This document shows, in pieces, positions 1 through 29,634 of a stretch of 34,028 bases of DNA. Within the stretch, counting starts at the first letter, position 1. Each line of letters begins with the position of its first letter. The notes beneath the pieces are model-generated. The model had not been told where the DNA came from, searched no databases, and was given only the letters and a program-made list of their open reading frames with translations. Source of the stretch: a virus. The position numbers were made by a program, and so were the translations under genes. The stretch is from the IMG/VR virus record IMGVR_UViG_3300021964_000256, positions 1 to 34,028 of that record; one strand, given 5' to 3'.

Positions 1-6
1 AAGTAA

Positions 7-2228: not shown

Positions 2229-2244
2229 CTCTAGGAGTTATTTA

Positions 2245-3479: not shown

Positions 3480-4288
3480 TGTGGAATTTTATTGTTCCTG
3501 CCATAGTAGGCGCAGGTATATCAATGTTACAAAACAGAGACCCTATTCAAGGCGCACTTATTGGTGGAGCAACTGGTGGATTACTTGGTGGTGGATTTGA
3601 AGGATTTGGTTCAGCATTATCATCAGGCGGAGCATCAGGAATTGCAAATACCACAACACCTGTATTAGGAGGTTTATCTATGCCTGGTGCAACATCTGCT
3701 ATTCCAGGAAGTTTTAGTTCATTAGTTCCTTCTGCAACAACATCAGGAATTGCGACATCTACTCCACAAACAGCAGGTGGATATTCTAGTTTATTAGGTG
3801 GTGACACAATACTACAACCTAACAACATTGGTATGGGTAGTGTGACATCACAATTAAATACAGGTGCAACTACAGCAGGATTGGATTTAGGTAGTGGTGT
3901 TACATCTAATGCAATGAATCAAAGATTTACTCCATCGTTAATGACTACAGAAGGTGCTAGAGGTGTTCCTGTAAATCAAGCGGTAGATAGTGCATCTCAA
4001 AGTAGTTATATATACAGTCCAGATGAGTTAGATGAATTAGATATAACTCCAATAGAAGATGTTGAAGATAAAACTGTAATGGAAAAAATTACAGATACCA
4101 CAGGTCTTGAGAAAAAAGATTTAACATTATTAGGACTTAATCAATTTGCTCAATTAGGTGATGTTAAAGAAAACAAACCAGGTGTTGTTCAATTACCTGA
4201 AATTAAAAAGAAAGAACCAAAACTTGGTAAACCAGTAGCAACTTATTCTGCTTCACGACAAATTAAACCAAGATTTTATTCAGTATAG
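3479..4288 (+). CDS. Probable internal virion / ejection protein 2, Gly-rich
   Basis: A 269-residue protein with a hydrophobic, Gly-rich N-terminus (IVPAIVGAGISMLQ, then GALIGGATGGLLGGG), a long low-complexity Ser/Thr/Gly middle and a charged C-terminal third containing a DELDELD stretch and KKEPKLGK. The N-terminus could insert in a membrane, as expected for a protein that forms part of the DNA channel. It is the second of three ejection-type proteins in series, reminiscent of P22 gp7-gp20-gp16 in arrangement but not in recognisable sequence. Confidence 0.42.
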   Translation: MWNFIVPAIVGAGISMLQNRDPIQGALIGGATGGLLGGGFEGFGSALSSGGASGIANTTTPVLGGLSMPGATSAIPGSFSSLVPSATTSGIATSTPQTAGGYSSLLGGDTILQPNNIGMGSVTSQLNTGATTAGLDLGSGVTSNAMNQRFTPSLMTTEGARGVPVNQAVDSASQSSYIYSPDELDELDITPIEDVEDKTVMEKITDTTGLEKKDLTLLGLNQFAQLGDVKENKPGVVQLPEIKKKEPKLGKPVATYSASRQIKPRFYSV

Positions 4289-4297
4289 GACATAGAT

Positions 4298-5518
4298 ATG
4301 GCAAAGAATTTTATGCAAGATTTTTTAGGGTTTGGAATCCCAGATATTTATTCTGGTATTATTAAAGACCCTAAACAGTTAGAGCAACTTAATACTCAAG
4401 GGTTAAAAAGAGGTGCAACATATGGACTACTTAACTATCTTACACAACCTAAAAACCAAAACTATGGATCAGCATTGCCATATATAGGTCAAGCAGTTGG
4501 CAGTGGTTTGCAAGCATATCAAGGAACAATAGATGCGGGTCTTGCCGGTGCATTACGAGCAAAAGCATTAGAAACAGATGATATTCCTAAGATTGGTGCT
4601 ATTAATGCAGGCGATTATACTCCTGACTCATTGCAAAAATATCAACAAACAAAAAATCTTTCAGACTTAGTAAGAAGAACTGATCCAACAACAACTAAAG
4701 GTATGACTGATGAAGAAATTCTAAAATTAGAAAACGCATTTCCAGGTTTTAAAACAGATGAACAAACTAAAGCACTGCTCAGGACTGACAGAACAAAAGG
4801 TTTAGAAATATTTTCTAAAACATACACTGCCGAAAAAGACAAACCTAAATACACTGGAGAAACAATTAATGCTCTTGCTAAAGCAAACTTTGGAGGTAAA
4901 ATTAATTCAGCAACTGGACAACCTTATTCAGATAATCCTGATTTTGCTGAACTAAATCCACAAGATGCTCTTGCTATAATGGATGCAAAACAAAAACGTG
5001 AGATTGATTTAATTAATGCTGAATCAAATGCAAAATATAATACACCTGAAGGTCAATGGTCACGAATTACTACATTAAACAATAAATATGAGCAAGCATT
5101 AAAAGCAAACCAATTTGAAGAAATGGAAAAAGCATTTCAACAAGTTGAGATGGCAAGTAGAGCAGGAACTCCAATTGGTGACGTAGCATCAGCAATTAAG
5201 ATTATGAAATTGCTTGATCCAGGTTCTGTTGTTCGTGAATCTGAATTAGGTATTGCGTTAAATCAAACCAGTGGATTGGTCGATAGATGGAAAACATTTA
5301 TCGAAAGAAAATACACAGGTCAACAGTTGACTGCTACACAGCGTGAAGAGTTTAGACAAATTGCAAGTGATTTCTATAACATTGCACAGCAGTCTAAAAA
5401 CAAACTTGATTCAAGATTTATTAATTACGCTAAAGGTGCGGGAGTTGACCCAAGTCTAGTGGTTGGTTCATCAGGCGGTTATCTTGAGTATGATGAAAAA
5501 ACAGGAGAATTTAAATAA
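4298..5518 (+). CDS. Probable internal virion / ejection protein 3
   Basis: A 406-residue, mostly helical protein. The N-terminal 90 residues include GLQAYQGTIDAGLAGALRAKALE, a motif style frequent in marine podophage internal proteins. The middle has helices rich in K, E and Q (NKYEQALKANQFEEMEKAFQQ) and the C-terminal part carries an RESELGIAL segment. TAGGA lies 7 nt before the ATG. The stop overlaps the next start (TAATG). No enzyme motif is visible. The virion role is inferred from its place between the other two candidates. Confidence 0.45.
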   Translation: MAKNFMQDFLGFGIPDIYSGIIKDPKQLEQLNTQGLKRGATYGLLNYLTQPKNQNYGSALPYIGQAVGSGLQAYQGTIDAGLAGALRAKALETDDIPKIGAINAGDYTPDSLQKYQQTKNLSDLVRRTDPTTTKGMTDEEILKLENAFPGFKTDEQTKALLRTDRTKGLEIFSKTYTAEKDKPKYTGETINALAKANFGGKINSATGQPYSDNPDFAELNPQDALAIMDAKQKREIDLINAESNAKYNTPEGQWSRITTLNNKYEQALKANQFEEMEKAFQQVEMASRAGTPIGDVASAIKIMKLLDPGSVVRESELGIALNQTSGLVDRWKTFIERKYTGQQLTATQREEFRQIASDFYNIAQQSKNKLDSRFINYAKGAGVDPSLVVGSSGGYLEYDEKTGEFK

Positions 5519-7185
5519 TGGCAAATGAATTTGAATATATCCCTTATGGTGATAAAAAAATCAAAGTCAAAGCAGGACTGTCTAGGGAAGAAAAACTAAA
5601 GGCAGTTCAAAAAGCAGATCCTGATTACAAAACTTATAAAGAGTTATATTTGGATATTCCTGATACTCAAAATGTCCCAACATTTCCTGAATACAAGAAA
5701 CAATTAAGTCAAGTAAAAGCAGATGAAGCAAGACGTGCTGATAGAGGTATTGGTGAAAAAATAGTTGGAGCAGGAGAAACCGCATTATCTACTGGTAGCG
5801 CTCTTGGTAGTGCTATTTTATCTCCGTTAGTATATGGTGGCGAGACTATTAAAGATTTATTTACTGGGCAACCTGTAGAATCATTTGAAGATGTATTTGG
5901 TGACATTGTATCAGCAGGAACATATCAACCACGCACAGAAGCGGGTCAGGAATACACTAAAAATGTTGGTGATGCTATTACAGAATCTAAAATAGAAGGC
6001 GCTATTGGTATGCCTGTATTAGGTCGTTTAAGTAATGTTGGCACAGGCACTGCTATTAAAGAAGGTGTGAAGCAAGTTGGTGGCAAAGTAGGTCAACAAG
6101 TAAGCAAAGTATTGCCTAAAGGTGAAGGTGGAGGAGTTACTTCACAAATACTTGGCATGACAACTGGAGCAGGTAAAAATCCTATACGAATTGCTTATGA
6201 AACTGGAAAACAGGGAACAAAACAAGAAGTAGATGCTTTTTTAAAAGGAATAAACAATAACGCTTCTCCTGAAACTTTAGTTCAAAAAGCAAATAATGCT
6301 TTAGGTCAAATTAAAAAACAAGTTGGTTTAGAGTATCAAGCAAATAAAGCAAAACTTAAAACTGATAAACAGATTATTGAGTTTGATGAAATTAATTCTG
6401 CATTAGATGAAATTAAGCAAGCAGGTAAGTTTGAAAGAACTACAGTTAATCCTAGCACTGTCAATATGCAAAATAAAATTAGAAAAATTGTTAATGCTTG
6501 GCAAAAGAAAAATCCAAAGAAATATCATACACCTGAAGGCATTGATGCACTAAAAAGACGTATTGGTGATTTGTATGATAGCACCCAACCAGGCACACAA
6601 GAACGATTAGTGATTGACAAAGTTTATAATAGCATAGGCAACACTATTAGAAAAAACGCTCCTATATATGATGAAATGATGAAATCATATTCAGAAGGTA
6701 AAACACTAATAAGAGAAATACAAGATACATTTAGTCTTAAAGAAAAGAAAAGTGTTGATACACAATTTAGAAAATTAACATCTATACTTCGAGATGGTGT
6801 CAATGCTAACTTTGGCGAAAGATTTAATTTAGCGCAAAGACTTAATCAACTAGACCCTACACTATTTCCTGAACTAGCAGGAGAAAGTTTAAAAGCATAT
6901 GTTCCATCAGGAATACAAAGAGCAGTGGGTTCAGGCAATCTTGGTTTAAGTGCTTATGCAGGATCTCTTCTTGACCCAATAACTTTAACAACATTAGGCG
7001 CACAAAGTCCTAAACTTGTTGGTAGAGGTGCATTTGAATTAGGAAGAGGTGTTAGAGGTGTTCAAAATATCGGACAACAAATAGGCAATGCAATTAAAAC
7101 TCCAAATGTTCCATCATTATTAGGAACAGGTTCAACACAAGCAATAACAGATCCATTAGGGTTGTTAGGTATTACTGAGAGATGA
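5518..7185 (+). CDS. Probable internal virion / ejection protein 4, large
   Basis: A 555-residue protein. Residues about 75-110 form a Gly/Ala-rich amphipathic or membrane-active helix (GAGETALSTGSALGSAILSP), followed by a second amphipathic region near 150-190 and a long charged helical region at 240-430 (VQKANNALGQIKKQVGLEYQ). This layout is common in the largest ejected protein of small marine podophages and in phage polyvalent proteins. No lytic transglycosylase triad or MuF motif was seen. The C-terminus ends near residue 555 with a stop that overlaps the next tiny gene (TGATG). Confidence 0.48.
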   Translation: MANEFEYIPYGDKKIKVKAGLSREEKLKAVQKADPDYKTYKELYLDIPDTQNVPTFPEYKKQLSQVKADEARRADRGIGEKIVGAGETALSTGSALGSAILSPLVYGGETIKDLFTGQPVESFEDVFGDIVSAGTYQPRTEAGQEYTKNVGDAITESKIEGAIGMPVLGRLSNVGTGTAIKEGVKQVGGKVGQQVSKVLPKGEGGGVTSQILGMTTGAGKNPIRIAYETGKQGTKQEVDAFLKGINNNASPETLVQKANNALGQIKKQVGLEYQANKAKLKTDKQIIEFDEINSALDEIKQAGKFERTTVNPSTVNMQNKIRKIVNAWQKKNPKKYHTPEGIDALKRRIGDLYDSTQPGTQERLVIDKVYNSIGNTIRKNAPIYDEMMKSYSEGKTLIREIQDTFSLKEKKSVDTQFRKLTSILRDGVNANFGERFNLAQRLNQLDPTLFPELAGESLKAYVPSGIQRAVGSGNLGLSAYAGSLLDPITLTTLGAQSPKLVGRGAFELGRGVRGVQNIGQQIGNAIKTPNVPSLLGTGSTQAITDPLGLLGITER

Positions 7186-7247
7186 TGTGGAACGATTTAA
7201 ACTTACCCCCAATAAATTTATACAACGCTCCAAAGAAAGGAAACTAA
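7185..7247 (+). CDS. 20-residue phage microprotein
   Basis: A minigene of 20 codons that starts with the ATG overlapping the stop of the large ejection gene and ends with a TAA overlapping the next ATG. The product begins MWNDLNLPPINLYNAPKK. I recall similar LPPINLYN-type micro-ORFs in other marine phages, but could not check. The double stop-start overlap argues for translation in line with its neighbours. Function is unknown. Confidence 0.5.
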   Translation: MWNDLNLPPINLYNAPKKGN

Positions 7248-7411
7248 TGGAAATGGATCATACAGAAGCACGACTGAATACGCATGAAGCAATATGCAAA
7301 GAAAGATATGAATCTATCTGTGCCAGACTATCAAGACTTGAAAAGATAATGATTGGTATGACTGGCGGTATTCTTTTTATCCTTATCCACATTGCCCTTA
7401 AAATGTCATGA
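7247..7411 (+). CDS. Small membrane protein with C-terminal TM segment
   Basis: A 54-residue protein. I chose the ATG at 7247 because AAAGG (7236-7240) lies just before it and it overlaps the stop of the microprotein gene; an upstream in-frame GTG (7187) has no good site. Residues 1-35 are charged and helical (HTEARLNTHEAICKERYESI) and residues about 37-51 form a hydrophobic helix (GMTGGILFILIHIAL). It ends by ATGA overlap with the next gene. It resembles the small N-in membrane proteins found near phage lysis genes; an accessory lysis or holin-regulating role is only a guess. Confidence 0.55.
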   Translation: MEMDHTEARLNTHEAICKERYESICARLSRLEKIMIGMTGGILFILIHIALKMS

Positions 7412-7884
7412 GTAGAGAAATTGCTCTCTTAGTATCTGTATTACTTGTAATACTGTTTTATGTTCATACATCATGGGCAGAAACTACTACAAACATAAAG
7501 TATTCTGGACAACCAGTTCAGAGTGCTTTTGCTCCTAGCATATCTGCTTATGGTTCAGATATGTGTAGAAGTGGAGTGTCAGGTGGGGCAAACACTGGCA
7601 TGATCTCTATATCAGGAGGTGCTACAATTGTAGATGAAAATTGTGAAAGAATTAGGTTATCAAGGGTTATGATGGATGCCGGACTAAAGGTCGCAGGTGT
7701 TGCATTGTTATGCCAGGATGATCGTGTATTTGAAGCAATGTTACAATCAGGATCACCTTGCCCTTATCTAGGAAGTTTAGGAGCATCTGCTGAACGTGCT
7801 TGGTATGAACAAAAACCTGAGGTATTTAAAAAGTTATATGGTGAAAATTATACACCTCCTACTATTACTTATCCTATGGAGTAA
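7408..7884 (+). CDS. Secreted protein, unknown function
   Basis: A 158-residue protein with an N-terminal signal peptide (IALLVSVLLVILFYVHTSWA, cleavage expected after SWA). The mature part has a Gly/Ser-rich stretch and four cysteines (near residues 52, 77, 100 and 115), which could form disulphides in the periplasm. There is no lipobox, so it is not an obvious o-spanin. It overlaps the preceding gene by ATGA. Its C-terminal 46 nt overlap the start of the next secreted protein. It might be a periplasmic or virion protein; no family was recognised. Confidence 0.55.
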   Translation: MSREIALLVSVLLVILFYVHTSWAETTTNIKYSGQPVQSAFAPSISAYGSDMCRSGVSGGANTGMISISGGATIVDENCERIRLSRVMMDAGLKVAGVALLCQDDRVFEAMLQSGSPCPYLGSLGASAERAWYEQKPEVFKKLYGENYTPPTITYPME

Positions 7885-8872
7885 TGCTTATGCTTGGACT
7901 TGTTATTACCAACCTACGTCAGAAGGTTATATTACTGAAGGATCTCTTAGTTGCGAAGGGATTGACCCTACTATCGCACTGCAAGACTTTTGGTGTGTAT
8001 CTTATCAACCTAATGATCCAATTTGCGATCCGTTTAGGAAAGAGTTGTGTGTTGATACTGTGGAATATCGCACAGAAATGTGTCCCCAATACTATGAAGG
8101 AAGCATATCACAGAGCAGAACATATAGTTGCGCATCCCAAACTTGGTCAGACTGGATTGACTCTGGCGGTGCTTGTGTGCCTTTACCCCCTTCGTGTGTT
8201 AGTTCTACTGTTACACAAACTCGTTCATGTAACGAAGGATATAATGGACAAATAAAAGATACTGGAGAATATATTTGTCAAACCCCTTATTCAGAACCAG
8301 TATTCACAGGGTGGGTAGAAGAAAGCAATACTTGTATACAAAGCGTAATAGACATAAACGATCCAATATCAATTGTAAGTCCAATCTCCACAAATGCTAC
8401 TACAACGAACACAGAGAGTGCAATTGCACCTCAAGTTGTGAATACAATTCCGACTAATCCAATACAGTCAGCAATTAGTCAACAATTAAATGAACCGGTC
8501 GAGCAATCGGTCGACAATTCTGATAAAGACATCAACAATAAAACTGATAGCAAAGAAGAAGTAAAAACAACAAAAGAGAACAGGGATAATAAAGAGTCTA
8601 AAAAGGATAAAGATAATGTCGAAAATAATGCTCATGAAGTCCTTCCTGGATTTGGAGTTGTGTTATCACCTTTAACTTTATCACAAAATATTGGATTTAC
8701 CCAACAGCAAATACCACAACCTTTTTCTATAGAACAGGAATTTTCAGATGAGTTTAAAAGATTTGAGTCCAATATCATTGACATTCTCAAGCAAAGCGAT
8801 AGCGAGGATTATTATAGTCGTAGCACCGATAGTGCTTGGGATAGGATACTCAGCAACCAGTTTCTATATTAA
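7838..8872 (+). CDS. Secreted Cys-rich protein with low-complexity tail
   Basis: I place the start at 7838, giving 344 residues, because it directly begins a signal peptide (MVKIIHLLLLLILWSNAYA, cleavage before W); an earlier in-frame ATG (7796) lacks that logic. The mature N-terminal half has about 13 cysteines in imperfect repeats of the form SRTYSCASQTWSDWIDSGGAC, similar in style to thrombospondin-like disulphide modules. The second half is a polar linker rich in N, T, K and D, then a helical C-terminus. It is probably exported and disulphide-bonded. Function is unknown. The last 125 nt are shared with the next gene in another frame. Confidence 0.58.
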   Translation: MVKIIHLLLLLILWSNAYAWTCYYQPTSEGYITEGSLSCEGIDPTIALQDFWCVSYQPNDPICDPFRKELCVDTVEYRTEMCPQYYEGSISQSRTYSCASQTWSDWIDSGGACVPLPPSCVSSTVTQTRSCNEGYNGQIKDTGEYICQTPYSEPVFTGWVEESNTCIQSVIDINDPISIVSPISTNATTTNTESAIAPQVVNTIPTNPIQSAISQQLNEPVEQSVDNSDKDINNKTDSKEEVKTTKENRDNKESKKDKDNVENNAHEVLPGFGVVLSPLTLSQNIGFTQQQIPQPFSIEQEFSDEFKRFESNIIDILKQSDSEDYYSRSTDSAWDRILSNQFLY

Positions 8873-9185
8873 AATGAATGAAACAATAGAAGCGAGTCAA
8901 GGTCTAGGGCAAATAAAAAAAGATATTAATGAAATACAAATACAATTAACTTCTATTAAAGAACGACAAGTAGAGTCATTAAATTCAAGTATTCGTTTAC
9001 AAGAAAAAGCAAGCGAAGCATATGCACTATCTAAAGAATCTATTGCTTTAAGTAAAGCAACACAGCGTGAAACACAAGCAATTAGCAATGCGGTTCAAAG
9101 CGAAGTAGACACAAAATTACAAGCATTAAATGATAAACTAGAGGTAATTAAACGTGCTACTACAAACCCATTAGATAGAAGATGA
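8748..9185 (+). CDS. Membrane-anchored coiled-coil protein
   Basis: A 145-residue protein with one transmembrane segment near residues 19-40 (ARIIIVVAPIVLGIGYSATS) and then a long coiled coil (IEASQGLGQIKKDINEIQIQ onward, heptad-like to residue 135). AGGA at 8737-8740 precedes the ATG. It overlaps the secreted Cys-rich gene by 125 nt in a different frame; both translations look like real protein there. The topology, N-terminal anchor plus periplasmic coiled coil, is that of an i-spanin (Rz-type). The neighbours include holin and lysozyme, but no lipoprotein partner was found. Confidence 0.55.
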   Translation: MSLKDLSPISLTFSSKAIARIIIVVAPIVLGIGYSATSFYIKMNETIEASQGLGQIKKDINEIQIQLTSIKERQVESLNSSIRLQEKASEAYALSKESIALSKATQRETQAISNAVQSEVDTKLQALNDKLEVIKRATTNPLDRR

Positions 9186-9520
9186 AATTAGATATTAAAA
9201 CTTTACAATCAATATACGATATGTTGCTAACAACTCATGTTTTAAAAACAATAGGGTTGCCACCATCAGATGAAGTTGAGTTTGAGTTATTAGATATGGA
9301 TCAGGATTGTATGGCATCATATACTCCAGACCCTGACACAATAGGAATATGCCCGCAAAGACATAGGTTTCTTACTAGTGTCATTAAATCAATGCTTCAT
9401 GAAATTATACATATGACTAATCATTATTATGGCAAATCATATTTAAGGCACGATAAACATTTTAAAGAATTAAGAAAGCATATAGCAGACGAATTAGGTT
9501 TTGACGAAAACGAAATATAG
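9182..9520 (+). CDS. SprT-like zinc metallopeptidase
   Basis: A 112-residue protein with the zinc site HEIIH at residues 73-77 (HExxH) and a possible third ligand in HDKHFKEL (His90 or His93), the spacing seen in SprT-like domains. This is a minimal peptidase domain with no zinc ribbon. SprT/Spartan proteins process protein or protein-DNA crosslinks, but small phage members are uncharacterised. It overlaps the coiled-coil gene by ATGA and lies in front of the holin, so it may act on virion, host or envelope proteins late in infection. Confidence 0.7.
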   Translation: MKLDIKTLQSIYDMLLTTHVLKTIGLPPSDEVEFELLDMDQDCMASYTPDPDTIGICPQRHRFLTSVIKSMLHEIIHMTNHYYGKSYLRHDKHFKELRKHIADELGFDENEI

Positions 9521-9529
9521 GAGTAGTTA

Positions 9530-10018
9530 ATGTTAAGTATTTTATCCGGCATATTGGGATTTGCAACAAGTGGATTGCCAAGCATTTTAGATTTCTTTAA
9601 ACAAAAAGGTGACCAAAGTCACGAAAGAGAAATGGCACGACTCGATATGGAACGCAGTCTTGCTATGGCAGAAAAAGGTTTTGCATCACAAGAAAGAATA
9701 GAAGAATTTAGAACAGATCAAGTGGAGATGGAAACATATGCGCAAGAAAGAGTTGCCCTTTATGAACATGATGCGAAGATGTCGGAAAATGCGTCTTCTT
9801 GGGTTATTAATCTCCGTGCTAGTGTTCGCCCCATTATCACCTATATTTTTGTTTTTCTTTTGTTATTTACTGACGTTGTCGGAATGATATGGGCAATTAA
9901 AAGTGGTGTAGATTTTGCAACCGCAATGGAGTTAATTTTTTCAGATGAAGAGATGGCAATCGTAGCATCTATTATTGGATTCTGGTTTGGATCAAGGCAT
10001 TGGGATAAGAAGAAGTGA
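9530..10018 (+). CDS. Holin, 3-TM GTA-type family
   Basis: A 162-residue protein. The N-terminal 80 residues are charged and helical (KQKGDQSHEREMARLDMERS), followed by the conserved VINLRASVRPIITYIFVFLL, a second hydrophobic helix and the end FWFGSRHWDKKK. This is the pattern of the holin_3TM family found in gene transfer agents and many marine phages. It would make holes in the inner membrane for the lysozyme encoded next, whose GTG start overlaps this stop (GTGA). TAGGAG lies in front of the ATG. Confidence 0.82.
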   Translation: MLSILSGILGFATSGLPSILDFFKQKGDQSHEREMARLDMERSLAMAEKGFASQERIEEFRTDQVEMETYAQERVALYEHDAKMSENASSWVINLRASVRPIITYIFVFLLLFTDVVGMIWAIKSGVDFATAMELIFSDEEMAIVASIIGFWFGSRHWDKKK

Positions 10019-10503
10019 TAACCAGTGAAGAGGGAATTAAACTTATTAAGCATTTTGAAGGGTGTCATTACCATCCTTATCTTTGTCCTGCTTTACTGTG
10101 GACTGTGGGTTATGGTCATGTTCTCTATCCAGAGCAAAATAGACTCCCACTGGCACAAAGAAAGACATTCCCATTACATAAATCACATAATAGAAAGTGG
10201 ACTCAAAAGGAAGTAGATGATCTTTTACGACATGATTTACAGCGATTCGAGCGTGGCATACATCGTTTGTTACCTACTGTGCCACTTAAACAAAATCAAT
10301 TTGATGCTCTGGTTTCTTTTGCTTTTAATCTTGGTTTGGGGACATTACAAAGATCGACAGTAAGATCCGCATTACTAAGAGGAGACGAAGAAACAGCAAT
10401 AGATACTTTGTTGCTATATAGAAGAGCAGGCGGTAAGATACTTAAAGGACTTGAACGAAGAAGAGCAATGGAAGCACAGTTATTCTTCAAACATATTAAA
10501 TGA
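10015..10503 (+). CDS. Endolysin: GH24 lysozyme with E-C-T catalytic triad
   Basis: A 162-residue GH24 (T4/P21-type) muramidase. Catalytic residues follow E-8aa-[D/C]-5aa-T: Glu15, Cys24 in the place of the usual Asp, and Thr30, then the WTVGYGH motif. The C-terminal half has the typical QNQFDALVSFAFNLG motif and an RR pair before the end. No signal peptide or SAR segment is seen, so it should need the holin next to it. Start is the GTG overlapping the holin stop. The Cys variant is known in this family. Confidence 0.9.
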   Translation: MITSEEGIKLIKHFEGCHYHPYLCPALLWTVGYGHVLYPEQNRLPLAQRKTFPLHKSHNRKWTQKEVDDLLRHDLQRFERGIHRLLPTVPLKQNQFDALVSFAFNLGLGTLQRSTVRSALLRGDEETAIDTLLLYRRAGGKILKGLERRRAMEAQLFFKHIK

Positions 10504-11246
10504 AGATATTGTTTATCGACATAGAGACGAAAGCATCGGTAATTTCTGCATGGGGATTATATGATATTAATGCTAGTCTAAATCAAATTATCAGCAGAGG
10601 TAAAATGATTTGTTGGTCTGCTAAATGGAAAGATGATGACAACATTATCTTTGATTCAGAATGGACTTCTTCGCATAAAAAAATGGTAAAGCATATCTGG
10701 AAACTTATGGATGAAGCAGACATCGTTTGCCACTATAATGGTCAGGCATTTGATGTAAAATGTATACAAAGAGAGTTTTTGCTATTAGGTATGCCACCTC
10801 CAAGTCCATTTAAACAACTTGATTTGCTTCGAGTTATTAAAAGAAACTTTAGATTTATATCTAATAAACTTGACAATGTTAGTCAGGAATTAGGCATTGG
10901 TTCTAAGTTAAAGCACGCAGGAATGGATCTATGGAATGATGTAGATAAAAAAGATCCTGATGCCAGGCAGATCATGCAAAGATACAATGAGCAAGATACT
11001 TTATTGTTAGAAAAACTTTTCTACAAACTAGAGTCATGGTTAGGCGGATACATTAACCATAATGAATATAGTGATGTAGTTGTATGCCCTACTTGTGGTA
11101 GTTCTCATATCCATAAGCGAGGATTCAAAAAAACCAATACTCAAACATACCAACAATTTAGATGTATGGATTGTGGTTCTTGGAGTAGAAGTAATAAATC
11201 AATAAAGGGAAAAACAAAATCAGAGTCGATTATCAGCATAAGGTAG
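10500..11246 (+). CDS. DEDDy-type 3'-5' exonuclease with C-terminal zinc ribbon
   Basis: A 248-residue RNase H-like nuclease. Motif I is FIDIET (Asp7, Glu9), motif II is YNGQAFD (Asp85) and motif III is YNEQDTLLL (Tyr162, Asp166), matching DEDDy exonucleases related to the proofreading domain of family-B polymerases. Residues 196-225 form a zinc ribbon CPTCG...CMDCG. There is no polymerase gene in this window, so it is a stand-alone nuclease, perhaps for trimming or degrading host DNA. It overlaps the lysozyme stop by ATGA. It sits in the late operon, which is unusual for a replication enzyme. Confidence 0.78.
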   Translation: MKILFIDIETKASVISAWGLYDINASLNQIISRGKMICWSAKWKDDDNIIFDSEWTSSHKKMVKHIWKLMDEADIVCHYNGQAFDVKCIQREFLLLGMPPPSPFKQLDLLRVIKRNFRFISNKLDNVSQELGIGSKLKHAGMDLWNDVDKKDPDARQIMQRYNEQDTLLLEKLFYKLESWLGGYINHNEYSDVVVCPTCGSSHIHKRGFKKTNTQTYQQFRCMDCGSWSRSNKSIKGKTKSESIISIR

Positions 11247-15881: not shown

Positions 15882-16049
15882 TTGAAGTTTGAAGATGCAG
15901 TTAAAAAGTTTGATGGATCAGCACGAAAAATGGCAGAAGCACTTGGTGTTTCTGTCCCTGCTGTCCAGTATTGGAAGTCAACAGGAACTATCCCGGCAGT
16001 TCGAGTATTTCAAATCGAGGTCTTAACAAATGATAATAAAGACGTTTAA
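15882..16049 (+). CDS. Cro/YdaS-like HTH regulator
   Basis: A 55-residue protein beginning at TTG after AGGAGATTACA. The sequence MKFEDAVKKFDGSARKMAEA then LGVSVPAVQYWKSTGTIP is a clear Cro-type helix-turn-helix, with AEALGVS as the first helix and VPAVQYWK as recognition helix. It is transcribed first from the rightward promoter and probably binds the repeats in the divergent region. No CI-type repressor is present. It is overlapped by the next small gene. Confidence 0.8.
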   Translation: MKFEDAVKKFDGSARKMAEALGVSVPAVQYWKSTGTIPAVRVFQIEVLTNDNKDV

Positions 16050-19382: not shown

Positions 19383-19662
19383 AGGGTATACAACTGTTCA
19401 AGTGGTCGAAGTATGGATACCATTTGGTAAGTTTGGTAATCGCAGGGATCTGTTTGGAGCATGGGATATACTTGCAGTTAAAGATGGAGAAACCACTGCC
19501 ATACAGGTTACTTCTAAATCTAACATATCAGCACGAGTTAAAAAAATATCACAAAATGAACACATTAATAATTTAAGGGATGCTAACTGGAAACTTTTAG
19601 TGCATGGTTGGTTTAAAAATAAAAGCAATAGATGGGAGTGTAAAGAAATTGACGTTAGTTAA
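19336..19662 (+). CDS. Holliday-junction-resolvase-like PD-(D/E)XK protein
   Basis: A 108-residue protein (ATG 19336 with AAGGA close upstream). It has the pattern FGNRRDLFGAWDILAVKDGE and AIQVTSKSNISARVKK: Asp38 and Asp44 precede the Gln57-centred strand that replaces the usual ExK, as in a number of phage resolvase-like proteins. The end (HGWFKNKSNRWECKEIDV) is also conserved style. It may resolve recombination intermediates. The next gene starts inside its end. Confidence 0.58.
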   Translation: MATSPTQLTLKKLKSEGYTTVQVVEVWIPFGKFGNRRDLFGAWDILAVKDGETTAIQVTSKSNISARVKKISQNEHINNLRDANWKLLVHGWFKNKSNRWECKEIDVS

Positions 19663-20074
19663 AAATCCTCATGATAAAACAAATTATAAATATAAACTTA
19701 AAGAAAAATATGTAACTCGTAAAGAAGCAATAGATGCTCTTTTAAAGGTGTTAGATGGTAATGAACTGACTAGAGAAGATATAGTTCAGCAAACAGGATT
19801 AGAAGAAGTTCACATACATAACATTATACAAAAAATGAAAGATGCAGGACTAATAAGAGTTTTAGATAAAAAAAGAGATGGTCGCAGACTTTACACAAAA
19901 CATTATGAATGTTTACTTGCTGACTTATTTTTGCCATCCGCAGAAGAAATAGAAAAGAATTTTAAAATAAAATCTAAGACTGTTAGAAAAGTAGATCAGG
20001 GAACAAGTAAAGGTTCTGGAACTAAACATAGCGTAACATATACAAACTCTTATTATGATGGATGGGATCTGTAA
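19649..20074 (+). CDS. Winged-helix (MarR-like) regulator
   Basis: A 141-residue protein. I prefer TTG 19649 (MTLVKNPHDKTNYKYK); an in-frame ATG at 19604 would lie deeper in the nuclease gene and lacks a site. Residues about 40-85 (ELTREDIVQQTGLEEVHIHN to LIRVLDKKRDGRRLYTKH) form a winged helix-turn-helix. The C-terminal part is basic. It may regulate the early-to-late switch, because it sits just before the Q-like gene. No ligand pocket is visible. Confidence 0.6.
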   Translation: MTLVKNPHDKTNYKYKLKEKYVTRKEAIDALLKVLDGNELTREDIVQQTGLEEVHIHNIIQKMKDAGLIRVLDKKRDGRRLYTKHYECLLADLFLPSAEEIEKNFKIKSKTVRKVDQGTSKGSGTKHSVTYTNSYYDGWDL

Positions 20075-20400
20075 TGAATTTAGAATATCTTGAATATCTA
20101 TTATCTTTATGGGCAAGATGGATGAGACATGATGACTTAGGTCTTGGTTATCCAAAAAGAAGTTTAGGTATGAGTTCAGGAGGTGCATCAACAGAAGATT
20201 CATTTGATGAATTGTTTGAAGGTTCTGAAAGAGAAAAGGTTAGATCTTTAGATACTATTATTAATTCATTGGAAGAAGATCAGAAAAAATCTATATATCA
20301 TGTTTATTTAGGTTCTAAACCACCATCACTGCAAGACTATAAGTTTCAACTTGCTATGGATAATTTATTAACTTTAGCAACAAAAAGGATTGATCTGTGA
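20074..20400 (+). CDS. Q-like late antiterminator candidate
   Basis: A 108-residue protein beginning at ATG 20074 (TAATG overlap). It has the features of small phage Q-type or sigma-70 region-4-like regulators: SLWARWMRHDDLGLGYPKRS, an acidic linker and SLEEDQKKSIYHVYLGSKPP then a C-terminal helix. The strongest support is context: the -35 of a good promoter lies in its last codons and a terminator follows, exactly where lambda Q acts on pR'. Antitermination is inferred. Confidence 0.62.
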   Translation: MNLEYLEYLLSLWARWMRHDDLGLGYPKRSLGMSSGGASTEDSFDELFEGSEREKVRSLDTIINSLEEDQKKSIYHVYLGSKPPSLQDYKFQLAMDNLLTLATKRIDL

Positions 20401-20418
20401 TTCATTTTAAGGTAGAAT
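20390..20418 (+). promoter_or_regulatory. Late promoter, pR'-like
   Basis: TTGATC (-35, 20390-20395), 17-bp spacer, TAGAAT (-10, 20413-20418). It begins in the last codons of the Q-like gene. Transcription would start near 20425 and meet the terminator 60-80 nt later unless antiterminated. Confidence 0.58.
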
Positions 20419-20447
20419 TGCAGTCATAGGGGCAAATTGCGCCCTTC

Positions 20448-20475
20448 GTTTCTTTACTATCTCTCATAAAGAAAC
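20448..20475 (+). repeat. Inverted repeat GTTTCTTT / AAAGAAAC
   Basis: Perfect 8-nt arms with a 12-nt loop (actatctctcat). It lies between the late promoter and the terminator and may form a hairpin in the leader RNA. TACTAT in the loop resembles a -10 element. Confidence 0.7.
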
Positions 20476-20484
20476 TCTCCTCCT

Positions 20485-20513
20485 AGACCCACTTCGGTGG
20501 GTCTTTTATTTTA
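20485..20513 (+). terminator. Strong intrinsic terminator with UUCG loop
   Basis: AGACCCAC - TTCG - GTGGGTCT, an 8-bp stem closed by C(UUCG)G, followed by TTTATTTT. It lies between the early genes and the late genes. Confidence 0.9.
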
Positions 20514-20555
20514 AGCAATGATAAATATGAGATCACTAAATTAAGGAGAAATAAA

Positions 20556-20615
20556 ATGTATGGCAAAAAACCAATGAAAAAAGCAAACACTAAAAAACCA
20601 ATGAAGAAGAAATAA
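20556..20615 (+). CDS. 19-residue Lys-rich microprotein
   Basis: It has AAGGAG before ATG 20556 and the product MYGKKPMKKANTKKPMKKK. It is first in the series of four basic small proteins after the terminator. The very high Lys content suggests nucleic-acid or membrane association; a virion DNA-condensing role is a guess. Confidence 0.6.
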   Translation: MYGKKPMKKANTKKPMKKK

Positions 20616-20930: not shown

Positions 20931-21191
20931 ATGAAAAAAGATGCAAGATTAACAAGAGCAGGTGTATCTGGATACAATAAACCAAAGAGAACTCCTAATC
21001 ATCCTACTAAATCTCATGTTGTAGTTGCTAAAGATGGTGACCAAGTAAAGACAATACGTTTTGGTCAACAAGGTGTAAGTGGTGATAAAAAGAAAACAGC
21101 AAGATCAGATTCATTTAAAGCAAGACATGGAAAGAATATAGCAAAAGGTAAAATGTCTGGAGCATACTGGGCAAATAAAGTTAAGTGGTAG
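20931..21191 (+). CDS. 86-residue basic phage protein, DUF6321-like
   Basis: I chose ATG 20931, which has AGGTGA 6 nt upstream; an in-frame TTG at 20925 follows the stop directly. The sequence GVSGYNKPKRTPNHPTKSHV, KTIRFGQQGVSGDKKK and KARHGKNIAKGKMSGAYWA is typical of a small conserved family, which I recall as DUF6321. It may bind DNA or RNA. Its 3' end overlaps the DUF1289-like gene by 7 nt. Confidence 0.72.
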   Translation: MKKDARLTRAGVSGYNKPKRTPNHPTKSHVVVAKDGDQVKTIRFGQQGVSGDKKKTARSDSFKARHGKNIAKGKMSGAYWANKVKW

Positions 21192-23640: not shown

Positions 23641-23970
23641 ATGGAACACGATGATAATATAGAACAAGAACCTGGATGGGGCGGTAAACGAGAAGGTGCA
23701 GGCGCTCCTAAAAACAATCAAAATGCTAGTAAAAGCAATAGGTTATATGCAGAAACAATCAAGAGGATTAATGTTCAGTCTGAAGGACAGGTAGCATATG
23801 ATATTGCTATGGCATTAATTACAAAAGCAAAAGATGGCGACATCTCTGCTATCAAAGAGTTTGGTGATAGAGTAGATGGTAAAGCAGTATCTACAACAGA
23901 ATTATCAGGAATAGATGGGGCAGATCTTCCAATAGGTATTACAGTAGAGTATGTCAAATCTAAAGATTAA
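23641..23970 (+). CDS. Terminase small subunit
   Basis: A 109-residue protein with the N-terminal GWGGKREGAGAPKNNQNASK, the usual head of many phage TerS proteins, followed by a helix-turn-helix-like and oligomerising region (GQVAYDIAMALITKAKDGDI). TerS recognises phage DNA to begin packaging. CGGAG lies in front of the ATG, and the gene overlaps the large subunit by 20 nt. The combination with a P22-like portal suggests headful packaging, but this is inferred. Confidence 0.82.
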   Translation: MEHDDNIEQEPGWGGKREGAGAPKNNQNASKSNRLYAETIKRINVQSEGQVAYDIAMALITKAKDGDISAIKEFGDRVDGKAVSTTELSGIDGADLPIGITVEYVKSKD

Positions 23971-25216
23971 AGCAAAGTTTCCTGAAATACTAAAGTTTCT
24001 ATCTGAACCATATAGATATAAAATCTTATTCGGTGGTCGAGGTAGTGGAAAATCTTGGGGAGTTGCTAGAGAATTACTAATACAAGGAGCAATGAAAAAT
24101 AATCCATTGCGTATTCTTTGTGCAAGGGAAATACAACGATCAATTAAGCAGTCAGTTCACCAATTACTATCAGATCAGATACAAGAGTTAGGACTAGGAT
24201 CATTCTATGATGTCCTGGAAAACGAGATACGAGGTAGAAACGGAACAAAGTTTAGTTTTACTGGTCTTGCAAACAACACAGTAGAAAGTATTAAATCATA
24301 CGAAGGTGTTGACAGAGTATGGATCGAGGAAGCGCAAACAGTTAGTAAGAAGTCATGGGACATCTTAATCCCTACGATTCGTAAACCAGGTTCAGAGATA
24401 TGGGTAACATTTAACCCATCATTAGATACAGATGATACTTACCAACGATTTGTAGTTAATCCACCTGAGAACAGTAAGGTTGTTAAGATTAATTATAATG
24501 ACAATCCATTCTTTCCGGATGTTCTTGAGCAAGAAAGACTATACAGTAAAGAGCATGACCCTGATTATGGAAACATATGGGAAGGTGAATGTAAGAGTGC
24601 AGTTGATGGTGCTATCTATGCTAGTGAGATAACACAAGCACAAGAACAAGGGCGGGTAACAAGAGTTCCTTATGACCCATCACTGAAAGTTCATGTAGTC
24701 ATGGATTTAGGTTGGAACGATAGTATGTCGATCATACTTGTGCAAAAAGGTGTATCTGATATTCGTATCATTAACTACATTGAAGATGACCATAGAACAT
24801 TAGACAGTTACTCTGCACAACTAAAAGATATGAAATACAATTGGGGTCAGATGTATTTACCTCATGATGGTAGAACAAAAGATTTTAAACATGGTATCTC
24901 AGCAGAAGATATTATGCGCAGATATGATTGGGATGTTCGCATTGTGCCAAGACTTGATATAGAATCAGGTATAAGAGTTGCAAGGATGAACTTTCATCGT
25001 ATCTACTTTGACACAAATGCTCATCGTTTAATCGAATGTCTTAAGCATTACAGACGTGGTATTAGTGCCACAACAAATGAACCAGGCGCACCAGTGCATG
25101 ACCAATATTCACATGGTGCTGATGCGTTTCGTTATTTAGCAGTATCTATACAAGATATGACCAATGAGTCCTGGCATAATAGCGAGATACAATATTCTAA
25201 TTTAGGAATCGTTTAA
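23951..25216 (+). CDS. Terminase large subunit
   Basis: A 421-residue TerL. Walker A is GGRGSGKS (residues 28-35), Walker B is VWIEEA (123-128), followed by FNPSLDTDDTYQRF and KINYNDNPFFP. The nuclease domain starts with VMDLGWNDSMSI (first acidic Asp) and continues to YSHGADAFRYLAV with the last Asp. The family is PBSX/Terminase_3-like. It drives packaging through the portal encoded next, with which it shares a TAATG junction. Confidence 0.93.
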   Translation: MSNLKIKAKFPEILKFLSEPYRYKILFGGRGSGKSWGVARELLIQGAMKNNPLRILCAREIQRSIKQSVHQLLSDQIQELGLGSFYDVLENEIRGRNGTKFSFTGLANNTVESIKSYEGVDRVWIEEAQTVSKKSWDILIPTIRKPGSEIWVTFNPSLDTDDTYQRFVVNPPENSKVVKINYNDNPFFPDVLEQERLYSKEHDPDYGNIWEGECKSAVDGAIYASEITQAQEQGRVTRVPYDPSLKVHVVMDLGWNDSMSIILVQKGVSDIRIINYIEDDHRTLDSYSAQLKDMKYNWGQMYLPHDGRTKDFKHGISAEDIMRRYDWDVRIVPRLDIESGIRVARMNFHRIYFDTNAHRLIECLKHYRRGISATTNEPGAPVHDQYSHGADAFRYLAVSIQDMTNESWHNSEIQYSNLGIV

Positions 25217-27279
25217 TGAAATTAACACAAGAAGAAATAGTTGCTAAGATAGAGAACGAAGAGAGCATTGCGTATGGTATTAACGATTCGCAATTATCTG
25301 AAGAGCGTGCGCAAGCAATTCAGTATTATCTTGGCGAACCTATGGGTAACGAAGTTGAAGGTCGTTCTCAAGTGGTATCTTACGACACTCAGGATACAAT
25401 CGAATCTGCATTACCGCAAATTTTAAAAATCTTTGTCAGTGGAGACGAAGTTGTAAGATTTGAACCAAAGAATCCAGAAGATCAAGAGTCAGCAGACCAG
25501 GAAACAGATTATGTAAACCATGTTGTTATGGAAAAGAACAATGGGTTTGAAGTATTCTATGTATGGTTTAAAGATGCACTACTTTCTAAAAACGGATATG
25601 TAAAAGCATACTACGAAGAAGAAGATGATTATGATGAAGAGTCATACGAAGGTCTAACAGATGCACAGTTAGATATGCTTGCATCAGATGACAACATCGA
25701 GATATTAGAACACGATGCTTATCCTGATCCATCAGTTGCCCCAATGCCACTAACTCCTCCGATGATGACGGAAGGTCCAGATGTAAAACCTTTAGATGGT
25801 AAAGGTGTTGAAATTGATATGCAAATGCAACAAGCATTTGAGCAACCAATGTTACATGATGTGAAGATCCGCATTAACGAAACAACAGGTCATATTAAAA
25901 TTAAAAACGTAGCACCTGAAAGCATCATGGTTTCTGTAGATTGTAGCGGAACAGATTTAAACACAGCAAGATTTGTGCAACATCGTGAGTTAATGTGTCC
26001 AGAAGAAGTAGCAGAACAGTTTGACATGGATGTAGAAGAAGTAGAACAAATCATGGCAGACACACAAGATGCGTTTGAATTAGAATCTAATGCTCGTGAT
26101 ATTTACTCAGAGCAATATGATCGTGCTGTAGATACAACAGATATTTTAGTTAAAGACACATACTATAGAATGGGTGATGAGCGTTATCGTTATGTTGTTA
26201 TTGGTAATACAATTATCTATGAAGAAGAATGTGACCATGTTCCATTTGCTTGTGTTACACCAATGTTAATGCCACACAGACATATTGGTCGTTCATATGC
26301 AGACTTAACTAAAGACATTCAAATGGTTAAATCTACATTGATTCGTGGTCAATTAGATAATATGTATTTATCTAACAATGGTCGTTATGCTATCTCTGAT
26401 CGAGTAAACCTAGACGATATGCTAACCTCAAGACCAGGCGGTGTTGTTCGAGTGCAAGGTGAACCAGGTAGTTCAATTATGCCATTGCAACACGCTCCAT
26501 TCCCCGCATCATCTTTCAACATGGTTGAATACATGGATAACATGAAAGAAAAAAGAACGGGAATTACTGCATACAATCAAGGTTTAGATAGTAACTCATT
26601 AAATAAAACTGCTACCGGTGTTCAGCAAATCATGAACGCATCACAACAGCGTTTAGAATTAGTTGCTAGAACATTTGCAGAAACAGGTGTTAAAGATTTA
26701 TTCTTGCTTGTTCATAAGATGGTAAGACAAAACTTAACTAAACCTGACATCGTTCGTATTAGAAACAAATGGGTAGAGATTGATCCACGTTCATGGAAAA
26801 ATCGTAAAGACTTAACTATTTCAGTAGGTCTTGGTGCAGGAAACAAAGATCAACAGTTAATGCACTTAAACAACATTCTACAAATGCAGAAAGAAGCATT
26901 ACAAGTTGGACTTACAGATCCAAGTAAAATATACAATGCGTTAGCAAAACTTACACAGAACGCAGGATTTAAGAACCCAGAAGAGTTTTGGATTGATCCA
27001 TCTAATAACCCACAACCACAGCAACAACAACCAAATCCACAAGAGCAATTGATTCAAGGTCAGTTACAGATCGAGCAAATGAAAGCGCAAGCAGATATGC
27101 AACTAGAAGCGCAGAAGAATGATGCTGATATGAAGCAAGAGCAACTCCGTTCACAAAATGATATAATCATAGAACGTGAGAAGATTGCATCTCAAGCAGA
27201 GTTGGAAAGATTTAAAGCACAACTCAAGGCAGAGACCGATCTTGCTATTGCCAACATTAAAGCACAAATGGGTATGTAA
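25216..27279 (+). CDS. Portal protein, P22-like
   Basis: A 687-residue portal. The N-terminal region EEIVAKIENEESIAYGINDS and the DTQDTIESALPQILKIFVSG motif are typical. The core HIGRSYADLTKDIQMVKSTL to MYLSNNGRYA and LNKTATGVQQIMNASQQRLE gives the stem and channel part of the P22 family. The last 90 residues are a Gln-rich coiled coil, which resembles the barrel tail of P22-type portals. It forms the dodecameric ring for DNA packaging. Confidence 0.92.
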   Translation: MKLTQEEIVAKIENEESIAYGINDSQLSEERAQAIQYYLGEPMGNEVEGRSQVVSYDTQDTIESALPQILKIFVSGDEVVRFEPKNPEDQESADQETDYVNHVVMEKNNGFEVFYVWFKDALLSKNGYVKAYYEEEDDYDEESYEGLTDAQLDMLASDDNIEILEHDAYPDPSVAPMPLTPPMMTEGPDVKPLDGKGVEIDMQMQQAFEQPMLHDVKIRINETTGHIKIKNVAPESIMVSVDCSGTDLNTARFVQHRELMCPEEVAEQFDMDVEEVEQIMADTQDAFELESNARDIYSEQYDRAVDTTDILVKDTYYRMGDERYRYVVIGNTIIYEEECDHVPFACVTPMLMPHRHIGRSYADLTKDIQMVKSTLIRGQLDNMYLSNNGRYAISDRVNLDDMLTSRPGGVVRVQGEPGSSIMPLQHAPFPASSFNMVEYMDNMKEKRTGITAYNQGLDSNSLNKTATGVQQIMNASQQRLELVARTFAETGVKDLFLLVHKMVRQNLTKPDIVRIRNKWVEIDPRSWKNRKDLTISVGLGAGNKDQQLMHLNNILQMQKEALQVGLTDPSKIYNALAKLTQNAGFKNPEEFWIDPSNNPQPQQQQPNPQEQLIQGQLQIEQMKAQADMQLEAQKNDADMKQEQLRSQNDIIIEREKIASQAELERFKAQLKAETDLAIANIKAQMGM

Positions 27280-27536
27280 TGAAAGATAAAACACTTGAAG
27301 AGATAAAGCGTGGTGAGCAAGCAGATAAGATACTGAGCAACGAAGTATATAGAGAAGCATTTAATAAAGTTAGAAATAACATTGTTGATGCAATGGAAAA
27401 CAGTCCGTTAAGTGATGATGTAACACACAACAGATTAGTTATTGCTCTACAAACTTTGACTCAAATAGAGAAAGCACTGAAAGATATTATGCAAACAGGT
27501 AAGATGGCAAAAATACAGGTGCAAGATCTTAAATAG
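27279..27536 (+). CDS. Small helical head-region protein
   Basis: An 85-residue helical protein (LEEIKRGEQADKILSNEVYR to MQTGKMAKIQVQDLK). Proteins of this pattern are found between portal and scaffold genes in marine podophages. Start overlaps the portal stop (TAATG). Function is unknown, perhaps in head assembly. Confidence 0.62.
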   Translation: MKDKTLEEIKRGEQADKILSNEVYREAFNKVRNNIVDAMENSPLSDDVTHNRLVIALQTLTQIEKALKDIMQTGKMAKIQVQDLK

Positions 27537-27594
27537 ATTTGGGTAAGGGCAGACCCACTTAGCAACACAATGCCTAATTTAAAAAGGAAATACA

Positions 27595-28614
27595 ATGAGT
27601 GACCAACCTAATATGGAGTCACCACAAAGTCGTTTGGAAGCGATGCTTGGTGACATTGAAAATGATGCTCCTCTTGAGGACATTGTTGAAGAACCACAAG
27701 AAGAAGAGGAAGAAACTGTAGAAGATACAGAAGAAGAAGTCGTAGATGATTCAGAAGATCCTACAGACGATGCTTTCGATGATGAAGAATCCGAAGAGAC
27801 TGATGACGAAGTAGAAGAAGAGGACTCCGATGAGGAACAACCTACAGAAACTGTTAAGTTAAAAGTCAATGGTGAAGAAATCGAGAAACCTCTTGACGAA
27901 GTAGTGGCATTAGCGCAACAAGGACTTGACTACACCAAGAAAACTCAGGAAGTTGCTGAAAAGCGTAAGGAACTTGATGCTTTAGAGAATCAAATTCTTT
28001 TGCAAGAACAGAACCTCCAACAGCAATCTATGCTGAACAGTGAGTTAATACAGGATGTAGCGAAAATTACGGCACTAGACCAACAATTATCCGAGTATCA
28101 AGACGTGAACTGGGAACAATTGTCTGATAGTGATTTCGTAACAGCACAGAAGAAATTCTTTACGTTTAATCAGTTACAGCAACAACGCAGTAACTTGGTT
28201 TCACAGTTTGAATCCAAAAGGCAAGAAGCATTGAATAAACAGCAACAGATGGTTGCAGATAAGGTAGCAAAAGGTAGAGAAGTCCTCGCTAAAGAAATAC
28301 CGAATTGGAGTCCAGAGACTACCCAAGAAATTATTTCTACAGGCAGAGATGATTACGGATTTACCGATGCTGAACTTAACTCAATCATTGACCCTCGCCA
28401 CGTTCGAGTGTTGCACGATGCTATGCAATGGAGAAAACTTAAATCTAAAAATTCGGTAGTAAAGAAAAAGGTCAGTCGTGCTAAACCAGTAGTGAAACCT
28501 GGTTCTAAAGACCCAAGTAAAACAGTTACCTCTAGTGCTAAAAAAATGCGTGAGCAATTACGCAAAACAGGTAGCACAGAGTTAGCATCTAAATTAATCG
28601 AAGATATGATTTAA
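27595..28614 (+). CDS. Scaffolding protein
   Basis: A 339-residue protein with a very acidic N-terminal third (residues 20-80 mostly E, D and V), a short KLKVNGEEIEKPLDEVVALA motif, a long coiled coil (QEVAEKRKELDALENQILLQ) and a basic C-terminal region (KSKNSVVKKKVSRAKPVVKP) that would bind the capsid protein. This is the usual composition of podophage scaffolds. It lies directly before the capsid gene. AAAAGG lies upstream of the ATG. Confidence 0.85.
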   Translation: MSDQPNMESPQSRLEAMLGDIENDAPLEDIVEEPQEEEEETVEDTEEEVVDDSEDPTDDAFDDEESEETDDEVEEEDSDEEQPTETVKLKVNGEEIEKPLDEVVALAQQGLDYTKKTQEVAEKRKELDALENQILLQEQNLQQQSMLNSELIQDVAKITALDQQLSEYQDVNWEQLSDSDFVTAQKKFFTFNQLQQQRSNLVSQFESKRQEALNKQQQMVADKVAKGREVLAKEIPNWSPETTQEIISTGRDDYGFTDAELNSIIDPRHVRVLHDAMQWRKLKSKNSVVKKKVSRAKPVVKPGSKDPSKTVTSSAKKMREQLRKTGSTELASKLIEDMI

Positions 28615-28627
28615 GGAGTAAATAATC

Positions 28628-29584
28628 ATGGCAGTTTCAGCAACCAATGTCTATACCGGTGCAGGTATAGCAGAAGATTTTCAGAATGTCATTTATGACA
28701 TTTCCCCAGAGGAAACACCTCTACTTTCAATGTCGAAGCGCACATCGGCAGGTCAGACTTACCATCAATGGCAGACGGACCAATTAGCACCTGCGGGCGC
28801 TAACCGCCAGTTAGAAGGTGACGATGCAACATACGCTACATTAGCATCAACAACTGTGTTAGGTAACTACACACAGATCTCTCGTAAGACAGTCAATATT
28901 TCTAACACATATGACGTGGTTAAGAAATACGGAAGAAAAAGTCAAGTCGCTTATGAATTAATGAAAGCGGGTAAAGAACTTAAACGTGATATGGAATACG
29001 CATTAGTGCGTAACCAAGCATCATCAGCAGGTGGCGCAGGAACAGCACGCTCATCAGCAGGTGTTGAATCATGGATCGCAGGCAACAGTGTTAAAGCAAC
29101 ATCAGCATCTACAGCAACTACACCAGGTTTCTCAGGTGGCGCAGTTGTTGCACCTACAGATGGAACAGCAGGAACATTTGTTGAAGCAGATCTTAAATCA
29201 GCATTAGAATTAGCATGGTTAGATGGTGGTGAACCAACAACTATCCTCATGTCATCTAAAAACAAAAAACTTTTCTCAGCATTTGCAGGTATTGCAGAGA
29301 AACGTCATATGGTAAACGGAACAAGCGAAGCAATCATTACTGCGAGCGCAGATGTATATGTCAGCGATTTTGGGAATCATACTGTTAAATTAGACAGATT
29401 CATGCGTGATGAAGCAGTTCTTTGTCTTGATCCACAATATGTTAGCGTTGCTACATTAAGACCGATCACAAAAGAAGAACTTGCTAAAACAGGTGATTCA
29501 TCTAAATACTTGATGACAGCAGAATACACATTAGTGGTTAATAACCCTGATGCTCATGCTAAAGTTCAAGGTGTTGGTGCTTAA
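28628..29584 (+). CDS. Major capsid protein, SU10/DUF5309-like
   Basis: A 318-residue HK97-fold capsid protein of the SU10_MCP type. The opening VYTGAGIAEDFQNVIYDISP then EETPLLSMSKRTSAG, the QLEGDDATYATLASTTVLGN motif and VSDFGNHTVKLDRFMRDEAV are typical. AAGGAG stands before the ATG. An intrinsic terminator follows at once, in accord with high separate expression. The Ala/Ser/Thr/Gly-rich insertion at 135-180 may be surface exposed. Confidence 0.9.
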   Translation: MAVSATNVYTGAGIAEDFQNVIYDISPEETPLLSMSKRTSAGQTYHQWQTDQLAPAGANRQLEGDDATYATLASTTVLGNYTQISRKTVNISNTYDVVKKYGRKSQVAYELMKAGKELKRDMEYALVRNQASSAGGAGTARSSAGVESWIAGNSVKATSASTATTPGFSGGAVVAPTDGTAGTFVEADLKSALELAWLDGGEPTTILMSSKNKKLFSAFAGIAEKRHMVNGTSEAIITASADVYVSDFGNHTVKLDRFMRDEAVLCLDPQYVSVATLRPITKEELAKTGDSSKYLMTAEYTLVVNNPDAHAKVQGVGA

Positions 29585-29604
29585 TCAACATTAGTTTATA
29601 ATAG

Positions 29605-29634
29605 AGGGGTGGGATAACTACCCCTTTATTTTTA
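29605..29634 (+). terminator. Intrinsic terminator after capsid gene
   Basis: AGGGGT - GGGATAACT - ACCCCT then TTATTTTTATA. It lies between the capsid gene and the next gene, so it should set capsid mRNA above the downstream genes. The loop is 9 nt and the stem 6 bp, so partial read-through is likely. Confidence 0.72.

Follow-up and report, generated by a model that had tools for sequence, protein, structure and literature searches.

A putative Q-type antitermination switch with a conserved 5' leader hairpin in an uncultured phage and its relatives

Genome setting and the probable late-switch interval

The window analyzed here is a whole IMG/VR record of 34,028 b, and its source is an uncultured virus of bacteria. 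Its gene order is that of the lambdoid plan. A leftward block contains Erf-like and RecE-like genes, and the rightward genes run from a Cro-like ORF through replication initiator-like, helicase-like, NinB-like, winged-helix and Q-like genes to the switch and then to the late genes. The main features are listed below.

15884-16048, rightward: short Cro-like ORF with a TTG start, at the head of the rightward operon
19604-20074, rightward: winged-helix protein, directly 5' of the Q-like gene
20074-20400, plus strand: Q-like protein of 108 aa, with a possible alternative start at the in-frame ATG upstream, at 20062
20390-20418, plus strand: candidate late promoter TTGATC-17-TAGAAT, 9/12 consensus matches
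20425, plus strand: predicted transcription start, placed 7 nt 3' of the -10 from the -10 position
20428-20446, plus strand: 5' leader hairpin AGGGGC-AAATTGC-GCCCTT, with in-register conservation in relatives
20448-20475, plus strand: second leader hairpin, 9 bp, in the window only and absent from the other leaders inspected
20485-20514, plus strand: intrinsic terminator, tR' equivalent (hairpin 20485-20504), 8 bp, UUCG loop, U-rich tract
20556-20615, plus strand: first small ORF 3' of the terminator, read from the sequence, with AGGAG at 20544-20548
23951-29584, plus strand: late genes for terminase large subunit (TerL), portal, scaffold and major head protein
29600-29630, plus strand: another terminator-like hairpin, inside the late operon just 3' of the major head protein gene

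The -35 TTGATC (20390-20395) lies within the last codons of the Q-like gene, the stop codon is at 20398-20400, and the -10 TAGAAT is at 20413-20418; this is the arrangement that an earlier sequence-only reading had pointed out. That reading also described a leader of 60-80 nt and a terminator with a UUCG loop before the late genes, and this description holds: from the predicted start at 20425 there are about 60 nt to the terminator stem and about 80 nt to the terminator end, and the late genes are on the same strand. The terminator reads AGACCCAC-TTCG-GTGGGTCT, then TTTATTTT. Folded as RNA, positions 20425-20512 form three separate hairpins (z -5.9 against shuffles), of which the two leader hairpins were missing from the reading. 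The window matches no Rfam family and its leader hairpins are not mutually exclusive; an attenuator or riboswitch was rejected on these grounds.

Taken alone, the window promoter is not above chance (17 such sites found against 21.8 expected), and terminators number 3 against 1.3 expected. The set of elements in the window rises above chance only through its conservation in relatives, not through the window promoter itself.

Several observations concern the surroundings of the switch. The annotated Cro genes of phage Venkman and of one other related record (L002) match the Cro-like ORF in position. The winged-helix protein scores barely above the cut-off for PF02002 (TFIIE alpha), with MarR-type matches under their own cut-offs, and is a possible partner or regulator. 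The hairpin at 29600-29630 is strong; the P22 record notes a stem-loop at the equivalent place, and Venkman has a TTCG hairpin there. A late antiterminator would need to carry transcription through the 29600-29630 hairpin. The rightward genes at 7-11246 are probably a continuation of the late operon across the record ends, an assignment that stays conjectural since the ends carry no end repeat and no reading frame crosses them cleanly. The window TerL (23951-25216) is 74-77% identical to those of group B and C records (G002, G005, G006), and the Q-like protein is only about 45% identical to those of the same records; to judge from these identities, phages that are otherwise close seem to swap their Q modules. 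The view that the phage lacks an RNA polymerase of its own is plausible in light of ORF sizes, the largest ORF being the portal protein of 687 aa; a PF00940 (RNA polymerase) profile search gave no match, but no control responded and the result carries no weight.

The Q-like protein and its relatives

In a tblastn search of phage records, three relatives of the Q-like protein were found, two of them annotated as antitermination proteins ('phage antitermination protein Q' and 'antitermination-like protein'). Scanning for close relatives with only the window protein as query yielded none. A scan of IMG/VR gave 366 pattern stretches, 323 of which were confirmed to encode a relative; the best 80 of these 323 were kept, and further scans added more. 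The pattern scan of bacterial genomes gave 15 stretches, none of them confirmed as a relative, by which absence is not proven. A literature search, whose coverage lay outside most subscription journals, found no paper describing the Q-like family or a Q switch with a leader hairpin. The string 'antitermin' does not occur in the examined portion of the paper on Melnitz, a relative of Venkman (PMC9004378).

The switch had been called lambda-like. Its layout bears this out (see the counts of stops below), but the protein family does not: neither the window protein nor its relatives match PF03589 (lambda Q), and hhalign against lambda-type Q gave a probability of 0.15% (E 0.4). Membership of the lambda Q family was rejected, and the protein is closer to the phage 21 type. 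The window protein does not match PF06530 itself, and 7/18 family members match it weakly (E<=1, best 2.3e-4), with bit scores, where given, of 20.2 and 16.4 against a curated cut-off of 26; by record, three of nine match and none of the nine exceeds the curated cut-off. QuuD, a PF06530 protein, matches Q21 at 7.6e-7, which ties PF06530 to 21Q. With hhalign, the family profile reached a probability of 55 (E 1.2e-4) against 21Q and QuuD combined, 30 against the QuuD type alone, and a weak 1.1 against the 21Q type alone. An hmmsearch of PDB sequences with the family profile did not find Q21.

Two AlphaFold2 models were compared with known structures, with mean pLDDT of 77.7 for the window protein and 79.1 for the second. 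In the window protein model, helices span residues 3-18, 40-47, 52-65, 68-79 and 87-106; pLDDT falls below 50 at residues 25-42, and at residues 22-43 of the second model. In VIA-align, Q21 chains came first for both models, with Z of 6.9, 6.5, 6.4, 6.2 and 6.2 for the window model and 7.5, 7.0, 6.3, 6.2 and 6.2 for the second. The best alignments cover 94 residues at rmsd 5.5 (Z 6.9) and 82 residues at rmsd 3.3 (Z 7.5). Structures of sigma region 4 lie just below or among the Q21 chains (best Z 5.6 and 6.3). Foldseek by itself placed a Q21 chain only 37th (E 8). The sequence-only reading had proposed structure prediction against known Q families, and this comparison speaks for 21Q in rank but not in score: every Z (6.2-7.5 for the Q21 chains) is below the guide value of 8, and the 21Q-like fold is thus supported and unproven. 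In the predicted fold, a flexible stretch links an N-terminal helix to a bundle like that of sigma region 4, which is supportive rather than proof; in the published 21Q crystal structure, as the consulted sections of PMC6606751 describe it, H3-H6 resemble sigma region 4 and a flexible loop is present. From sequence profiles and models together, the Q-like protein looks like a remote relative of 21Q. Membership of the 21Q family is not claimed, since the PF06530 cut-off is not reached and the spacer element of that family was not found.

Conservation of the module and of the leader hairpin

The first set of loci consisted of 83 relatives and the window. In 77 of these 84, a promoter and a terminator are present in the stretch 3' of the Q-like stop. 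The seven misses are L003, L034, L041 and L042, where another gene comes next; L045, where the promoter is present and the terminator absent; and L063 and L073, where the contig ends. Under a strict rule, with loci made distinct by downstream sequence and segments shorter than 170 nt excluded, the module follows 74/104 distinct Q-like stops and 7/2457 stops of other ORFs in these loci; because of how the search was built, each locus has the Q-like gene alongside. Among the 30 misses are 17 loci of the Venkman type, three with an inserted gene, L045, and nine below threshold (L093, L098, L118, L119, L134, L135, L138, L158 and L215). In these nine the module is visible by eye, in full or in part, with elements that are weaker or differently shaped. 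The promoters of the relatives lie in the same place and fit the consensus better than that of the window, mostly with TG before the -10, and their terminators lie at a similar distance.

Twelve records were searched for the window TerL and the Q-like family. In 7/7 checked records of the three main groups (G002, G003, G005, G006, G009, G010, G011), TerL lies downstream of the Q-like gene and is co-directional with it. In 3/3 records of the Venkman type (G004, G007, G008), the group without the module after Q, TerL is on the opposite strand, and likewise in Venkman itself, whose annotated late operon is on the minus strand. In the checked records, therefore, the module follows Q where the late genes follow. 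One record (G001) has no TerL match; the relative EBPR podovirus 1 has the module between the Q-like gene and TerS, with TerS directly 3' of the switch. In another (G012), TerL adjoins both Q-like genes; this 23,353 b contig of L134 holds two Q-like genes and three TerL matches, and is either a chimeric assembly or derived from more than one phage.

In the Venkman type (L003, L144, L148-L150, part of L196-L242, Venkman record MT375522), varied genes lie directly 3' of the Q-like gene and overlap its stop or start close by. In Venkman, TTGTGG-17-TATAAT at the record ends, 5' of gp72 and away from the Q-like gene, is a candidate late promoter; an AT-rich 5' hairpin and a weak hairpin resembling a terminator accompany it (positions 1-464, minus strand, in Venkman, L243; 2713-3270 in L264). 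The site is common to G004 (87% identity over 559 b), in which the two Venkman record ends join at it. It is treated as a lead and not counted as evidence. A GGG-N7-CGCCC element near the Venkman late operon was rejected; its sole exact match, at 9952, is not near the operon.

In the relatives, the leader hairpin begins within about 6 nt of the predicted start. In-register pairing covers 73.6% of the cells in an alignment of 36 distinct leaders, compared with 36-40% when the strands are slid by 1-3 columns; 0/500 shuffles reach the in-register value. Compensatory changes, on both sides of a pair, occur in 4/6 pairs, part of this covariation being one change between groups; control (a) of the alignment retains relatedness. 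Rows L004, L017 and L134, whose pairing is shifted by one column, were counted against the helix; L197, where a promoter match arose by chance within a cargo gene of the Venkman type, was removed before alignment. The hairpin is broken in L009-type leaders, L093 and L137, and both hairpin and terminator are lost in L045. Significance per sequence is weak (p<0.1 in 12/29 leaders), and the support for the hairpin thus comes from the alignment, not from single sequences. In group C, Q-like proteins that are almost identical are found with two different stems, GGACA/TGTCC and GGGCA/TGCCT, which favors RNA pairing over a fixed DNA operator.

The late leaders of lambda and HK639 can also form a hairpin at the 5' end. 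Shuffle p values are 0.026 for lambda (L165), 0.054 for HK639 (L252) and 0.105 for P22, and 0.23-0.94 for four other leaders of the 21 type, whose start sites are assumed; on these values, a general 5' hairpin in known late leaders is not claimed.

For 21Q, lambda Q and AlpA, the relevant passages of PMC6606751 and PMC9371919 place the binding element in the -35/-10 spacer and, after the start, a pause element that resembles a -10. In the spacers examined here, compared within groups of similar Q-like proteins, no hexamer is conserved; the most frequent occurs in 6/27 distinct spacers of group A and 7/14 of group C. The mean pairwise difference in the spacer, close to free, is 0.49 (group A) and 0.45 (group C), and in the hairpin region 0.12 and 0.36, respectively; the nine sequences of group B (0.11 and 0.05) are too uniform for spacer and hairpin region to be compared. 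A degenerate spacer site may exist. Hexamers of -10 type inside the hairpin (GATAGT, GATAAC, CATAAT) are frequent but not general: at alignment column 8, A2 and T6 are present in 14/36 leaders, and 16/36 have at least 4/6 matches. A second such element at column 20 (A2 and T6 in only 13/36 leaders) is not general and was set aside.

The proposed switch and its likeness to known systems

The interval is very likely the late switch, acting by Q-type processive antitermination of the late operon as a variant of a known mechanism; the earlier suggestion of a putative antitermination switch from early to late genes is well supported by the conservation of the module and its co-direction with the terminase gene. 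The rightward early operon would have the Q-like protein as its final product. Host sigma-70 RNA polymerase would start constitutively at about 20425, produce a leader of about 80 nt and stop at the terminator 20485-20504, and the Q-like protein would let this polymerase run through into the late genes. Loading probably takes place within the leader's first 35 nt, the hairpin region, and not in the -35/-10 spacer; this is the least certain step.

What is new here, and open to testing, is the 5' hairpin. Whether it is a working part of the switch is doubtful. It might load the Q-like protein, through the RNA hairpin or its pause, in place of the -35/-10 DNA element; or it might fold outside the protein ring once the RNA has passed through, acting as a stopper knot that keeps the antiterminator from coming off the RNA.

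Promoter and terminator together make up a complete, short transcription unit whose 5' hairpin is conserved, and they could also encode a stand-alone small RNA of about 80 nt, with other promoters driving the late genes and the Q-like protein doing something else. A CTCTCC stretch in several groups and a further promoter-like site at 20949-20978 (10/12) would fit this reading, but the unit occurs in association with the Q-like gene and with late genes on the same strand, its sequence outside the stem diverges between groups, and promoter-like sites in the late region are below chance (39 against 51.9 expected); the reading is unlikely. Alternatively, the Q-like protein could be a sigma-region-4-like activator of the late promoter, the terminator serving only as insulation. 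Sigma70_r4_2 (sigma-70 region 4) weakly matches 7/18 members, and in the fold comparisons the next best scores belong to sigma region 4 structures. Against this very unlikely role, the promoters of the relatives, being near consensus and mostly with TG before the -10, would have little need of activation, the terminator sits between promoter and genes, and 21Q, whose H3-H6 are likewise sigma-region-4-like, is an antiterminator according to the part of PMC6606751 consulted.

It is most improbable that the leader is a cis-acting RNA of the HK022 put type, in which hairpins make RNA polymerase resistant without a protein. The window leader does have two stem-loops right after the start, as putRNA has in the account given in part of PMC9378689, but the second is found only in the window, the other groups keep just the short first hairpin, and a constitutive antiterminator would leave the terminator without purpose. 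Q-type antitermination, the preferred reading, would explain concretely how uncultured podovirus-like phages of a broad group (323 IMG/VR stretches with a relative in one scan) pass from early to late genes; in the records consulted, their late control has no other assignment.

HK022 put RNA likewise has hairpins directly after the promoter. It consists of two large stem-loops, about 70 nt in total, whereas the present leaders keep only a single short hairpin and come with a protein gene; the pair of conserved stem-loops that marks put is not found, the second stem-loop being window-only and Rfam unmatched. AlpA of Pseudomonas aeruginosa and GafZ of Caulobacter, in the portions of PMC9371919 and PMC11150451 consulted, are HTH antiterminators that are loaded at the promoter through binding elements between -35 and -10 and pass a nearby terminator, AlpA having two more helices than 21Q; they are likened to the present system by description, not by sequence.

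The promoter, short leader and intrinsic terminator that lambdoid Q switches place between Q and the late genes are present here. Lambda and P22 (PF03589) share this layout, but their protein family is unrelated and their promoters and leaders differ in sequence. In P22, promoter and start are annotated 43 nt and 78 nt after the gene 23 stop, and the terminator lies 30-58 nt after the start. The Q/pR'/tR' switch of phage 21 and its PF06530 relatives, such as QuuD of DLP12, has the same gene order, with the promoter directly after Q, and the same short leader and terminator before the late genes; weak PF06530 matches and a similar predicted fold add to the likeness. Phage 21 Q has 162 aa compared with 108 aa here, and the Q-like protein is below family cut-offs. 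The window family is without a conserved element in the -35/-10 spacer and has a conserved 5' hairpin, which the 21-type leaders of SfI, SE10 and ST64T lack. If this hairpin is part of loading, recruitment of the Q-type antiterminator would be unlike that in lambda, 21 and AlpA.
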